The notes under the pieces are model-generated. The model was not told the origin of the DNA. It ran no database searches and saw only the letters and a program-made list of their open reading frames with translations. Below, piece after piece: positions 869 to 47,159 of a stretch of 64,000 bases of DNA. Each line of letters starts with the position of its first letter. The first letter of the stretch is position 1. The DNA comes from Proteus terrae (GTDB lineage: Bacteria > Pseudomonadota > Gammaproteobacteria > Enterobacterales > Enterobacteriaceae). Location: the NCBI RefSeq assembly GCF_003144325.1, contig NZ_PENS01000019.1:1-64000 (forward strand). The letters are read 5' to 3'. Made by a program: the position numbers and the translations under genes.

Positions 869-1513
869 CTAAGGAGTATAATATTGAACACCAATCTTAA
901 TAAGTTCTCTGCCTTGTGATTTTCGATGCTTATTTGTATCTCTTAATGAGTAAATACAGCCACAATATTCTTGTTGGTAGAATTGTTCACGTTTACTTAT
1001 TTCGATCATTCTGGCTGAGCCTCCTTTTTTACGCCAATTATAATCCCAATAAACCATATTAGGATAAGGTGCTACTGCTCTTTCACCACAGCCATTTATC
1101 TGTTTCATATCTTTCCAACGTGAGATCCCAAGTGAACTGGAAATAACGGAAAAGCCATTTTCAGAGGCATAAAGGGCTGTTCTTTCAAAGCGCATATCAA
1201 AACACATTGTGCATCGAATACCACGCTCAGGCTCTTTTTCCATTCCTTTAGCTCTTTCAAACCAATTATTTGTATCATAATCAGCATCAACAAAAGGAAT
1301 ATTATGTTTTTTAGCAAAACGAATATTCTCTTCCTTACGAATTAAATACTCTTTTTGGGGATGAATATTGGGATTATAGAAAAAGATAGTGTAATCAATA
1401 CCTGAAGCTTGTAATGCTTCCATGACTTCACCAGAACAAGGAGCACAGCAAGAGTGTAGTAAAAGCTTATTTGCATTTGCAGGTAATGTGAGCTTTTCTC
1501 GTATAAGAGTCAT
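869..1513 (-). CDS. queH: Epoxyqueuosine reductase QueH (DUF208)
   Basis: A 214-residue protein of the QueH family, the non-orthologous replacement of QueG for the last step of queuosine synthesis, reduction of epoxyqueuosine in tRNA. Its cysteine pattern fits the family: an N-terminal SCCAPC (residues 21-26), a central CTMCFDMR, and a C-terminal CGC, which together bind a [4Fe-4S] cluster and an adjacent metal. Length is typical. It is separated by 134 bases from idi and reads the same way, so it could share a transcript, but a hairpin lies between them. The family call rests on motif pattern and is secure. Whether queG also exists elsewhere in the genome cannot be seen. Confidence 0.9.
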
Positions 1514-1723
1514 AGATGATCCTAAATAACATTATTTTAGTTGTAAAATGATGCCTTTATTATAGTGATAAATACGTAGGCAATCTGCTTTTTTAAAATT
1601 ATTTAAAAATAACCACTTGTTTTATATAAATTAAAAATGATGAACGAAAATGATTTAGGTAATGACTATCAGAGAGTTTACTAGATTCATATTATGATGA
1701 GAGGTAAGATGAAATACTAATTC

Positions 1724-2928: not shown

Positions 2929-3854
2929 TCTAATGTTGGGTTCATTTGGGCAAGATCGAACGGTGTTATCTGATAAACATAGTAGTTCAACCAATTTGCA
3001 AACAATAAATGTCCATGACTACGCCAAGAAGCGATAGGTTTTTTGTTCGGATCATTATTAGGAAAATAGTTTTCTGGTAATTGAGGATCTAACCCTGCTT
3101 TAACATCACGGTGATATTCATCTGCGAGTGTATTAGGATCGTATTCAGGATGCCCTGTTGCAAAAACAACTCGTTTATCTTTTGATGCAAATAAATAAGC
3201 GCCTGCTTCTTCCGAAGTTGCAAGGATCTCCAAATCAGTATTATTTTGAATAAAGTCGATAGGAAAACCTGCATAACGAGAATGGGGAGCAAAGAAAGTC
3301 TCATCAAATCCGCGCGTTAACAGTGCATATGGTGAGCAAGTATTATGGGTATATACGCCTGAAATTTTTTGTTCTAGCGTATATTTAGGAAGGTCATATA
3401 AGATATTCAACCCAGCTTGAGCCGCCCAACAAATAAAGAGTGTAGAAGTAACATGCTCTTTAGCCCATGTAATCACCTCTTTTATTTCATCCCAATAAGC
3501 TACATCTTCAAATTCAACTAACCCTAATGGCGCGCCCGTGACAATAAGGCCATCAAAATTTTGCTCTTTAATTTGGTCAAAATCGCAATAGAAAGTATCG
3601 AGATGCTCTACAGGTGTATTTTTAGGAATACGAGAGTCAATACGCAATAATTGAATATCAATTTGAAGAGGGCTATTAGAAAGCAATCGCAGAAATTGAT
3701 TTTCTGTTTCTATTTTCTTTGGCATTAAATTAAGGATAAGCACTTTTAAAGGGCGAATATCTTGAATACTCGCTCTACTGGATGTCATAACAAAGACATT
3801 CTCTTTTTGTAAACAACTGACTGCGGGTAGCTCATCGGGTACTCTAATTGGCAT
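2925..3854 (-). CDS. metA: Homoserine O-succinyltransferase
   Basis: First committed step of methionine synthesis: transfers succinyl from succinyl-CoA to homoserine. The protein has 309 residues, as in E. coli. The nucleophile is Cys142 in FICWAAQAG, and His235 and Glu237 lie in the ATGHPEYD motif. The N-terminus [11 protein letters not shown] is conserved in the family. Three tandem Met boxes lie just upstream of the start, so MetJ with S-adenosylmethionine probably represses it. MetA and the B12-dependent MetH, 9 kb away, frame this region. Confidence 0.96.
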
Positions 3855-44405: not shown

Positions 44406-44902
44406 CTAAATCACATTAATAAAATGGCGTGGATACATAAGCCCAATCGGTGCGAAAGGGATGTCATCTTCAAAATCCATTGGTGGCTGATTATTTTGGG
44501 CTTGAGGTTGAGCTGGTGGTTGGTTTTGCTGTGCCGGTTGTGAACCTACTGATTTATTAGCACCACCTAGCATCTGCATCGAACCACCAACTTTTACAAC
44601 AATTTCTGCTGTATAGCGTTTAACACCGTTATCATCCCATTCGCGTGTTTGTAGTTGGCCCTCAATATAAATTTGAGAGCCCTTACATAAATAGCCACTG
44701 GCGATATCAGCGAGTTTTCCGAATAGAACGACACGGTGCCATTCTGTTTTTCACGGTTTTCACCCGTTTGTTTATCACGCCACTTTTCTGATGTGGCCAC
44801 AGCTAAATTGGCAACAGCACCGCCAGAGGGTAGATAACGAATTTCAGGATCACGCCCTAAATTTCCAATGAGGATTACTTTGTTTACTGATCCGTTAGCC
44901 AT
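44406..44902 (-). pseudogene. ssb: Phage single-stranded DNA-binding protein, frameshifted
   Basis: Reading starts at ATG 44902 with [16 protein letters not shown] and follows SSB to about residue 53 (QTGENREK). A run of only five A (five T on the plus strand, 44747-44751) then breaks the frame; six would restore [19 protein letters not shown]. The second frame continues through a Gln/Pro linker to MDFEDDIPF and 15 more residues (to FINVI) before a stop at 44406. In frame 0 translation ends at 44594 with unrelated sequence. This is a mutation, a sequencing error or a rare slip. The start overlaps the end of the HD-hydrolase gene by 8 bases. Confidence 0.82.
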
Positions 44903-45428
44903 TTTCAGACCCCTTATAAAGCTCATTAAAGCGGAGCAGGAATACGGCTTTTGCTTGTGGTGGTGTTAGTGGGTTAACAACAAAATCACCAGTTGGGATG
45001 CCCTCAAGCATTAGCCAATTACTACCAACATCGATTTCTAAATCACGTTTTTCAGTTGCTAACATCATCACGTCAGCAAAATGAACTTCATCGGACATGC
45101 TTTCTGGTAACCCAAACTTTTTGCGGATCATCTTTTCCACGCGCAATTCAATTAATTTATATTCAGGTAATAGATTTTTAAGTGGTGACGGTAGGTCTTT
45201 GACATAAGCTTCGCTAGCATCATGAAGTAGGGCTTCCAATGCAAATTCAGGTGCAACTAAATAACTCGCATATACAGAGTGTTGAGCAACAGAATAAAAA
45301 TTATCAAGCTGCCCATTAAAACGACATTCATTAGCAAGTCCACTTGCAATATCTTGAATATCAATATCCTCGATCCGTACATCGAGGTAATTGAAGTGCT
45401 TATTTGTTGCTGTTGCAATATAAGTCAT
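44895..45428 (-). CDS. HD-domain nucleotidase, YfdR-like
   Basis: A 177-residue HD-superfamily phosphohydrolase starting at ATG 45428 with GTGTGGAGAG upstream. Metal ligands are His50 (SVAQHSVYA), His69-Asp70 ([11 protein letters not shown]) and a C-terminal Asp in [15 protein letters not shown]. It resembles YfdR of the E. coli CPS-53 prophage, a predicted 5'-nucleotidase. It may adjust nucleotide pools for phage replication. The next upstream genes are YfdQ- and YfdP-like, the same set as in CPS-53. Its end overlaps the ssb start, so translation is coupled. Confidence 0.85.
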
Positions 45429-45452
45429 TATTCTCTCCACACAATTCTATAA

Positions 45453-45485: not shown

Positions 45486-46313
45486 TTACGCTGAAAATTT
45501 ACCAATGAATGTTTCGATTTCACTTTCATCAAATTCATCACAAAGTAGATTGCGAAACTCTTGAGCGATTTGTTCTTCAAGGTTTTCAAGTTGAACAATA
45601 CGAAGCACTAAAACGGGAACATCACCGCCAGTAAGCACGCTATAACGCAATTTAATACTACGTTCTTTTAACTCGTCATACGGAGTGCAGGTGAACTGGA
45701 ATGCTGTTGGCATAACATCTTTGCTTCTTGCTTCAACATTTTCTAATACTGAACGTTTGGCGCTAAAATCGTGATCTTCATGTTCAGCAGAGCGTGTTGA
45801 TTCAATCGTAATACGGCGAACAGCAGAAATAGCTTGTTTGATATCTAGAACATTACCGTCAGCATCGAACGCCATTAAATAATCACGCCAGTCTTCTAAC
45901 CATTCCGCTAATTCTTTTTGACGATGTTTAACACCATCAATTTTTAATAGTGCTGCGAATGGGGCTGTTTGTTTTAATTTCACAAGAGCCGTATTATCAG
46001 CATGACCAGGCTCACCAATTGTGCCGATATTGAAAATAGTTTTGGCACTCATTTCATTGGCATCAATAAAGCAACTAACACCTTCATCAATTGCATTCTT
46101 GATTGAGTATTTAACAAAATCACTGATGCTTGTTGTTTTCATTTCACCACGGAAACGGAAGCGACCTTCTTGTAAGTTTTCTAAACTACTTACTTTAAAG
46201 TCATTAGGAAGGACAATGGCAGGGCAAAGAGACTTCTCTATTGCATCGAGACTTAATGAAGCCACCGCCATATTTTGAATTTGCGAAATAGCATTACCGT
46301 CTAATTGAGACAT
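45486..46313 (-). CDS. DUF2303 family protein, YfdQ-like
   Basis: A 275-residue protein with the DUF2303 pattern: N-terminal DGNAISQIQNMAVAS, then PNDFKVSSLENLQEGRFRFRG, and FIDANEMSAKTIFNIGTIGEPGHADNTALVKLKQTAPF. It resembles YfdQ of CPS-53. Function unknown. Always phage-borne in my experience of the family, typically beside SSB or recombination genes. AGGAGTTTATTC lies before the ATG. Confidence 0.85.
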   Translation of the reverse strand: MSQLDGNAISQIQNMAVASLSLDAIEKSLCPAIVLPNDFKVSSLENLQEGRFRFRGEMKTTSISDFVKYSIKNAIDEGVSCFIDANEMSAKTIFNIGTIGEPGHADNTALVKLKQTAPFAALLKIDGVKHRQKELAEWLEDWRDYLMAFDADGNVLDIKQAISAVRRITIESTRSAEHEDHDFSAKRSVLENVEARSKDVMPTAFQFTCTPYDELKERSIKLRYSVLTGGDVPVLVLRIVQLENLEEQIAQEFRNLLCDEFDESEIETFIGKFSA

Positions 46314-46378: not shown

Positions 46379-46753
46379 CTAATTAACGGATTTTAATTTC
46401 CCGTCGGGCTGACCTTGCAAAGAAAATAATTGACCTTGATCTTCTTGCATAATTGTCAACTTACCACCTTTACCCACGTACATTGGTGTTTTGGTGGTGT
46501 CTTCTTCAGCCCGTTTTCCGCGTGGTGTTGGTGCAGAGAATTTAAGTTTATGAGTTATTTCAACTCGTTTTTCTTCCATTGAATTACTAAGGCGAGCAAT
46601 ATCTAATTCAATAGTGACCTTGCCTTTTCCACCATTATTTAAAACGCCTAAAGCCACATCATTTAAAACAGCAGAGACTTTATTTTCAAAAACGCCAGCG
46701 TCCAATTCGGAAAGAAAGTCGGGAACATTTGTCTTACGATCTTCTTGGCTCAT
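46379..46753 (-). CDS. YfdP-like phage protein, unknown
   Basis: A 124-residue protein with VPDFLSELDAGVFENKVSAVLNDVALGVLNNG, a central strand-rich part (GKVTIELDIARL, VEITHKLKFSAPTPRGKR) and MYVGKGGKLTIMQEDQGQLFSL. Fits the YfdP position and size, upstream of YfdQ and YfdR. GTGAGG precedes the ATG. Function unknown. First clear coding gene after the structured region at 46859-47150. Confidence 0.78.
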   Translation of the reverse strand: MSQEDRKTNVPDFLSELDAGVFENKVSAVLNDVALGVLNNGGKGKVTIELDIARLSNSMEEKRVEITHKLKFSAPTPRGKRAEEDTTKTPMYVGKGGKLTIMQEDQGQLFSLQGQPDGKLKSVN

Positions 46754-46858
46754 TTCTATAACCTCACGTTATCACTTCACACAATAAGAAAGGGCACTAG
46801 CGAGTTGACATAATCCTGATAAGACATTTCACAAATAATGCCAGTACCCTTGCTTATT

Positions 46859-46989
46859 GAGTTAGTTTTAGTGATTGGTGGTAGGTGCTTATCTCCTACT
46901 TACGTGACGGGATTCGAACCCACAACCCCAGCTTTATGGCCTCGCTCTACCGTTGAGCTACACGCATTCACCAATCCTAAAACTAACTC
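46859..46989 (-). ncRNA. Three-way-junction RNA element with a tRNA-like arm
   Basis: Outer stem: 46859-46880 pairs with 46969-46989 over 13 and 8 bp with one bulged base. Inside it, a hairpin GTAGG/CCTAC (46881-46885 and 46895-46899) and a tRNA-like cloverleaf (46900-46967) tile the rest with almost no unpaired linker. Orientation is inferred from the tRNA consensus, which is on the minus strand. Transcription on that strand would come from the leftward arm, placing the element in the leader of the yfdP-like gene. Either strand can form the outer stem. Not recognised as a described RNA family. Confidence 0.65.
46899..46967 (-). other. Degenerate tRNA-like cloverleaf
   Basis: Read on the minus strand: acceptor TGCGTG/CACGTA (one G-U pair), linker TA, D-stem GCTC/GAGC with loop AACGGTA, and T-arm GTGGG-TTCGAAT-CCCGT with the invariant TTCGAA loop. 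Twenty bases between D- and T-arm cannot form a 5-bp anticodon stem; at best CCA/TGG or GGC/GCT pair. The variable region is too short, and no CCA follows. It is therefore not a decoding tRNA but retains the recognition elements of one. Confidence 0.7.
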
Positions 46990-47061: not shown

Positions 47062-47159
47062 GTTTCTCTTCACACTTCAAATATTGTGCCTGATTATTTT
47101 CCCACCTCAGGCGGTGGTGGTATTCTTGGAAGATCCGACACAACCAAGAGAATGTTAAA
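47062..47159. repeat. Two further hairpins upstream of the 164-residue gene
   Basis: GCCTGA (47088-47093) pairs with TCAGGC (47107-47112), and TCTTGG (47123-47128) pairs with CCAAGA (47144-47149). With the elements at 46859-47061 they make a continuous structured stretch of about 290 bases with no long gene. Confidence 0.5.

Follow-up and report, generated by a model that had tools for sequence, protein, structure and literature searches.

A closed-stem RNA resembling lambdoid N leaders holds a tRNA-like insert in Proteus terrae

The minus strand of the window, by which we mean the whole 64,000-nucleotide stretch of P. terrae contig NZ_PENS01000019.1 that was analysed, carried a closed stem enclosing a tRNA-like arm and a 3′ hairpin. 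This element is probably a variant form of the closed N-leader stem found in lambdoid phages, and holds an exchangeable domain, here a decayed tRNA(CAU), in a leftward leader, where RNase III would cut the stem and the insert would be released. Sequence alignments showed that inserts of this kind recurred in phages and leaders with unrelated flanks, and that the shell around them was common to lambda, P22 and other lambdoid phages. The swapping of many unrelated RNA inserts within one stem suggests a platform for exchanging small structured RNAs that has so far gone unrecognised.

Structure and setting of the element

The element was divided into the following parts.
46859–46989 (minus): whole element, closed stem with tRNA-like arm and 3′ hairpin; fold, Rfam match and shell model
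46969–46989 (minus): outer stem, 5′ strand, partner of 46859–46880 minus the bulged A; covarying helix in relatives
46859–46880 (minus): outer stem, 3′ strand, with a conserved bulged A at 46872; seen in relatives and lambdoid N leaders
46881–46899 (minus): 3′ hairpin (HpB) with loop AGATAAGCA; stem covaries in relatives, identical loop in E. coli N leader L366
46901–46966 (minus): tRNA-like arm; RF00005 match, covariation in 16 sequences, nearest tRNA is tRNA-Met(CAU)
46961–46966/46901–46906 (minus): acceptor of the tRNA-like arm; tRNA-model match and covariation
46944–46958 (minus): D arm; tRNA-model match and covariation
46907–46923 (minus): T arm; tRNA-model match and covariation

The outer stem comprised 21 bp (13 + 1 + 7) interrupted only by the bulged A, HpB had a 5-bp stem (GTAGG-AGATAAGCA-CCTAC), and the tRNA-like arm was preceded by 2 nt and followed by 1 nt. 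An earlier note on this DNA had proposed these coordinates, the one-bulge outer stem, the short hairpin and the tRNA-like arm, all of which were borne out, reading on the minus strand. This strand had a minimum free energy (MFE) of −53.8 kcal/mol compared to a shuffled mean of −31.2 (z −5.85; none of 200 shuffles was as low). As the plus strand also folded well (−46.6, z −5.39, 0/200 shuffles), the strand could not be chosen from folding energy alone; the minus strand was assigned because the tRNA-model match and the genes of the leader were both located on it. The window element scored 70.5 bits with shell model R1, which was built from sequences excluding the window, and was present as a single copy in its own genome.

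The surrounding leader and the genes following it were organised as follows.
47102–47150 (minus): two tandem hairpins, put-like in shape; 79–83% identity to Edwardsiella, Providencia and Ewingella phage/plasmid stretches
46995–47061 (minus): closed-stem module upstream of the element; from folding, core similar in Ewingella L136 by eye
46783–46859 (minus): closed-stem module downstream of the element; from folding, outer stem similar in Providencia phage L135 and L275 by eye
46379–46753 (minus): first gene after the leader, in yfdP-like position; PHROG match (phrog_204)
45486–46313 (minus): yfdQ-like gene; domain match (DUF2303)
44895–45440 (minus): yfdR-like nucleotidase gene; PHROG match (phrog_318), Pfam YfbR-like match below its cut-off

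We take the genes after the leader to correspond to yfdP, yfdQ and yfdR. An ssb-like gene was found further along the same minus-strand operon, and a CI-like repressor and a CII-like activator were encoded to the right of the leader. The earlier note's placement of a structured RNA within the leader of a yfdPQR-ssb-like operon agreed with the comparison to shuffles, the gene neighbourhood and the covariation described below. A promoter scan of the leader returned 7 candidates against 6.3 expected, which is chance level. The ssb-like gene (44594–44926 and 44406–44579, minus strand) seemed to be broken, its SSB match stopping at residue 59–70 of 110; an acidic tail of SSB-like type was encoded in a separate ORF.

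The hairpin block (47150–47102) upstream of the element had similar stretches in Edwardsiella phage EPP-1, Providencia phage PSTCR8lys and an Ewingella plasmid. Like the put RNA of HK022 it comprised two tandem hairpins, and its size was near the ~70 nt given for put in PMC9378689. Alignment of the block with HK022 (between 26500 and 31000) was weak and unconvincing; put is unannotated in that stretch of the HK022 record. The sequence GTGTGAAG was found at 47075 and 46782, near the two neighbouring modules (47061–46995 and 46859–46783). Comparison by eye with Ewingella L136 and Providencia L135 revealed similar modules in which the outer stems had changed; the leader of the window may therefore consist of several exchangeable modules in a row. 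After the same upstream block, phage EPP-1 (L134, ~3365–3500) and Ewingella (L136, ~3060–3150) carried another closed shell, differing in sequence, and the interior of the L134 shell contained two T-arm-like hairpins. In PSTCR8lys (L135, 3108–3293) an annotated carbon storage regulator was located directly after the block, in the place where the window has RNA modules.

The tRNA-like arm

The arm matched the Rfam tRNA model RF00005 on the minus strand with 35.9 bits, passing the curated cut-off of 29. The region between its D and T arms was degenerate. Reading of the sequence confirmed the earlier note's claim that a canonical 5-bp anticodon stem and CCA are absent, and ARAGORN reported no tRNA in the window. 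The arm further differs from a tRNA in that both of its ends are bound into the junction. Energy folding did not return the cloverleaf, the MFE structure within the arm consisting of the acceptor stem and an alternative pairing elsewhere; support for the cloverleaf comes from the Rfam match and from covariation in relatives. The arm was identical at 54 of 64 aligned positions to a prophage-borne tRNA-Met(CAU) in L279, beside an ORF that we take to be lysozyme-like, and at 53 of 64 to the elongator tRNA-Met of L007. Other matches in its own genome, at E up to 10, were two tRNA-Met genes. The insert thus looks like a decayed tRNA(CAU) in which the acceptor, D and T arms were kept and the anticodon stem and CCA were lost.

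An alignment of 16 tRNA-like inserts representing three sequence types (alignment A3) had 95.3% of its cells paired, with L163 and L177 offset by one in the D stem and scored as unpaired there. Seven of its 15 pairs changed on both sides, a number reached by 3 of 500 shuffles, and the covariation score was 0.377 compared to 0.176 when shuffled (0/500). Further pair types were not above shuffles in this alignment (130/500).

These alignments bear on the possibility that a phage tRNA simply landed in the leader stem and has been degenerating there without function. The resemblance to the two tRNA-Met genes and the broken anticodon arm would be expected of such a relic. However, the broken anticodon region was nearly invariant among eight aligned type-A copies, the remaining arms changed in pairs, and tRNA-like inserts of other sequence occupied the same shell. 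We therefore regard a functionless relic as improbable.

The Rfam tRNA cut-off was passed by the window, L281, L148, L205, L272 and L143, and was missed by the T-arm-bearing elements of L163, L268, L193, L264 and L151. ARAGORN called the inserts of L143 and L164 as tRNA-Leu and reported no tRNA in L148, L170, L205, L163, L193, L264, L027, L151, L272 and L281. As a consequence of the two tRNA-Leu calls, some members may be less decayed than that of the window and not all are clearly decoding-incompetent. Motifs resembling T arms were also present in insert classes 9 and 14. Within the elements, an Rfam search of 13 loci (E to 1) gave tRNA matches only, and at the gathering cut-off, in 12 loci, the sole match inside an element was the arm of L143, that of L247 lying elsewhere. 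A CRISPR-repeat match in L189 was below its cut-off and outside the element, and was rejected. A match to sRNA-Xcc1 (81.4 bits, cut-off 53) was found in L172 (5631–5719, plus strand), a viral contig with a shell element.

The type-B inserts contained a candidate pseudoknot. Its helix 2 covaried, both sides having changed in 3 of 4 pairs; in helix 1 this was the case for 0 of 4, and two pairs were broken in some rows. In 40-nt stretches of L143, L148, L164, L170, L205, L163 and L268, all type B, a covarying 4-bp helix was seen just before the tRNA-like arm, and would complete the pseudoknot.

YrlA (RF02553), a bacterial RNA already described, combines a terminal stem with a domain resembling the D, T and acceptor arms of tRNA (PMC8394870). 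Rsr and PNPase are binding partners of YrlA, which illustrates that such a tRNA-like domain can allow PNPase binding and modification by DusA and TruB (PMC8394870). The earlier note's statement that it knew of no described phage RNA with the present architecture is countered in part by YrlA. No match to RF02553 was listed to E 1 between 40000 and 54000 of the window, and no rsr or rtc gene was among the ten neighbours examined. The model did match L006, where YrlA copies aligned with the window arm at 43/50 and 57/66 positions when long gaps were introduced; a YrlA-like origin of the arm is thus still conceivable. L006, a related genome, contained three tandem YrlA matches (1340–1716, minus strand), two at or above the Rfam cut-off and one just below, and 22 bases of the D-arm region of the window matched this tract exactly.

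Recurrence of inserts within a shared shell

The outer stem and the 3′ hairpin were present with a different interior in Proteus myxofaciens and Moellerella wisconsensis. A search with the 3′ core identified 19 viral loci and a relaxed search 37, those 19 included. The outer-stem shell was found at 90 places, a majority of them on IMG/VR contigs and some being the same DNA fetched twice, which represented 66 distinct elements, 62 distinct inserts and 23 insert classes; the classes are the result of clustering, and class 0 merges two insert types that were 0.42–0.49 identical. The elements ranged from 69 to 239 nt and the outer helix from 15 to 27 bp (median 20 for the 66 elements), the collection script having demanded a helix of at least 14 bp. 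Named carriers were Enterobacter phage EcP1 (Schitoviridae; a lytic phage), Proteus phage Brookers and Providencia phage PSTRCR_117lys. Two shell elements with differing insert classes were encoded per contig stretch in L163, L177, L202, L264, L265 and L268.

With the inserts removed, an alignment of 32 shell sequences had 96.5% of cells paired, and both sides had changed in 15 of its 36 pairs. The covariation score was 0.263 compared to 0.104 when shuffled (0/500) and 0.013–0.060 in slid controls, and further pair types were not above shuffles (107/500). This alignment (A2) comprised only elements bearing HpA, a hairpin on the 5′ side, so that the window's own shell type is excluded. It used 32 of 45 rows: rows of other length (L162, L176, L205, L268, L193 and L247) and that of L163 were left out, as were L153, L168, L172, L173, L242 and L280, to which near rows were already included. 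The invariant letters near the junction are partly an artefact of the search, as the sequences were found by those letters. A check independent of pairing was made on the 37 loci chosen by the 3′ core only, 36 of which had one 5′ core within 330 nt upstream; the exception, L156, had none within its stretch. Of these 36, 33 paired at no fewer than 10 of the 13 outer positions, compared to 0.65% of random placements. Compensatory changes across relatives, which the earlier note had named as support for its structure, were present in both the outer stem and the acceptor stem, and at the level of sequence they show that the fold is maintained.

The loops of HpA and HpB were complementary (GCTGA with TCAGC) and form a candidate kissing helix. 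Among the 60 elements with inserts of at least 60 nt, 40 of the 50 that bear HpA had a complementary HpB loop, allowing G-U pairs, and loop variants were still complementary (GCCGA/TCGGC and GATGA/TCATT); none of the 10 lacking HpA, the window's included, retained TCAGC. One pair of the helix changed on both sides, so the candidate rests on few events.

A shell-model search of the order gave matches in 2 of 394 genomes; its filters lose long inserts, and this host range is therefore a lower bound. A pattern search allowing up to 3 mismatches returned 44 of the 394 genomes, but the listed places other than that of the window had 3 mismatches, with many repeats among them; they were treated as chance and give no measure of host range.

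The same inserts were found in different surroundings. Window-type inserts were 0.88–1.00 identical across contexts, with flanks (0.43–0.55) at chance. The insert of the window itself had an identity of 0.92 to the L027 and L096 inserts, compared to 0.46–0.55 for the flanks and a between-class baseline of 0.55. Inserts of one class held in differing outer stems were 0.81–1.00 identical (0.78 for class 9 and 0.80 for class 14); type-B inserts were 0.74–0.96 identical among themselves and type A against type B 0.42–0.49. The 80-nt flanks were mostly 0.37–0.61 identical, near the between-class 0.55, with higher identity where contexts were related (L003/L166, L140/L142, L140/L209, L175/L167 and a few others). 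The inserts of EcP1 and PSTRCR_117lys were 0.94 identical between flanks of 0.46 and 0.37.

Recurrence of inserts between contexts with sharp boundaries could also be produced at the DNA level, if a recombination site able to form a hairpin carried the inserts from place to place as cassettes. The complementarity of the loops, the G-U changes and the location shortly before start codons fit an RNA instead, and the conserved letters at the boundaries would permit ordinary homologous recombination; we consider such a DNA site very improbable.

Relationship to lambda N leaders and possible role of the insert

The N leader of lambda is a classic regulatory RNA. According to Steege (1987) it is reportedly processed, and RNase III is said to modulate the translational repression of N (Wilson 2002). 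The same helix with a bulged A and CCAAA was located 18–24 nt before N in lambda, 434, HK446, mEp043, Sf6, HK544, mEp213, P22, 1H12 and PSTNGR2lys. The stem of phage N7 had a bulged G instead, L288 and L348 also fitted, and the script did not obtain the stem in phage 21, IME1369, L345 and L346. The elements were 122–123 nt in lambda and 434, 233 nt in the HK446 type, 71 nt in 1H12 and 82 nt in N7. In many shell carriers the next ORF was N-like by eye, and that of L138 was PF25694 by domain match. The kinship in E. coli emerged only when the leader of lambda was the query, which matched 846 of 5426 E. coli genomes; the window leader, its HpB side, a small element and a type-B insert had no match in E. 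coli genomes.

Seven leaders (HK446, 434 and L364–L368) were compared with that of lambda, and five could be delimited. These five (HK446, 434, L364, L365 and L367) were identical to lambda outside the stem, at 45/45 and 30/30 positions, and four of them had interiors that differed from that of lambda and were of three types. L365, an E. coli leader with lambda-identical flanks, contained HpA, HpB and a class-12 insert (100 of 131 columns matched); its score against class 12, which here consists of the two contigs L162 and L176, was 66, compared to at most 10.5 in 500 shuffles. In the E. coli N leader L366, the HpB loop was seen by eye to be AGATAAGCA, as in the window. Through the shared stem and bulged A, the class-12 insert of L365 and the loop of L366, these comparisons place shell elements and lambda-type leaders in one family.

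The window conforms to the shape of this family, a closed helix measuring some 20 bp in which one A of the 3′ strand stays unpaired and is followed by CCAAA or CTAAA. With the RNase III site in the nutL-N leader stem of lambda it shares the closed helix with TTTGG, bulged A and CCAAA, the early left leader and a branched interior. This closed stem with a bulged A is a second respect in which the claimed lack of described phage counterparts did not hold. The window element differs from the lambda leader in that it precedes yfdP/Q/R-like genes and has a tRNA-like interior. No N gene was among the neighbours examined, and a position between an antitermination site and N was not found, so the element was classed as a variant rather than a plain member of the family; in relatives, the same shell is found ahead of N. 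In the titles and abstract beginnings that were searched, which mostly fall outside subscription papers, no exchangeable or tRNA-like inserts in N leaders were described. The nutL-N interval of lambda is described as rich in structure, with translation of N being repressed by N itself together with Nus factors at nutL (PMC5725501), and RNase III as having several targets in lambda (PMC5371410).

Most probably the element is a leader cassette which RNase III can cleave and from which the insert is released. Close to the beginning of the early left operon, a closed helix of ~20 bp containing a bulged A would enclose an exchangeable RNA domain in a leader probably transcribed leftward. Homology to the lambda N leader makes an RNase III site the most likely identity of the outer stem, and a cut as in lambda would separate the downstream mRNA from the leader and free the insert as a compact RNA. 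In the window, where N is absent, the cut would act on leader processing. Beyond this, the released insert might act in trans through its elbow instead of being a mere spacer, for example on PNPase or on enzymes that modify tRNA, in the manner of YrlA. This trans-acting tRNA mimic is the boldest reading of the insert, and is modelled on YrlA because the tRNA-like domain of that RNA binds PNPase and becomes modified.

It is quite possible, however, that the insert is a spacer only, any compact RNA sufficing to join the outer-stem strands into an RNase III substrate, or to fix the spacing from antitermination site to ribosome-binding site, with pieces of tRNA as available filler. Many unrelated inserts of very different lengths occupied the same place, short N leaders such as those of 1H12 and N7 exist, and the folding energy of most inserts was unremarkable, being no better than shuffled (z below −2 in 3 of 23 class representatives). 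Against a spacer, and suggestive of a function of the insert, little-changed inserts recurred amid unrelated flanks, including in EcP1, which has no annotated N gene nearby. In the tRNA-like inserts, the helices of the acceptor, D and T arms covaried, and the type-B inserts kept the covarying helix of their possible pseudoknot.

If the insert of the released cassette does act in trans, a wider reading can be offered, although we think it rather unlikely: phages of Enterobacterales may share a platform in which the N-leader stem docks and excises interchangeable trans-acting RNA effectors (23 classes) that would be among the first RNAs of infection. The tRNA-like ones would act as mimics, occupying tRNA-handling machines or defence factors, and the remaining inserts would be directed at different RNA machines of the host. 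Were this true, these phages would have a standard excisable stem for delivering small RNAs at the start of infection, which is directly testable. The shell inserts supply natural tRNA-like RNAs with altered anticodon arms for the study of elbow-binding enzymes. In the comparisons made here, the interior of the N-leader stem varied within a common shell and was swapped between phages of several genera, in some cases probably as a tRNA mimic.
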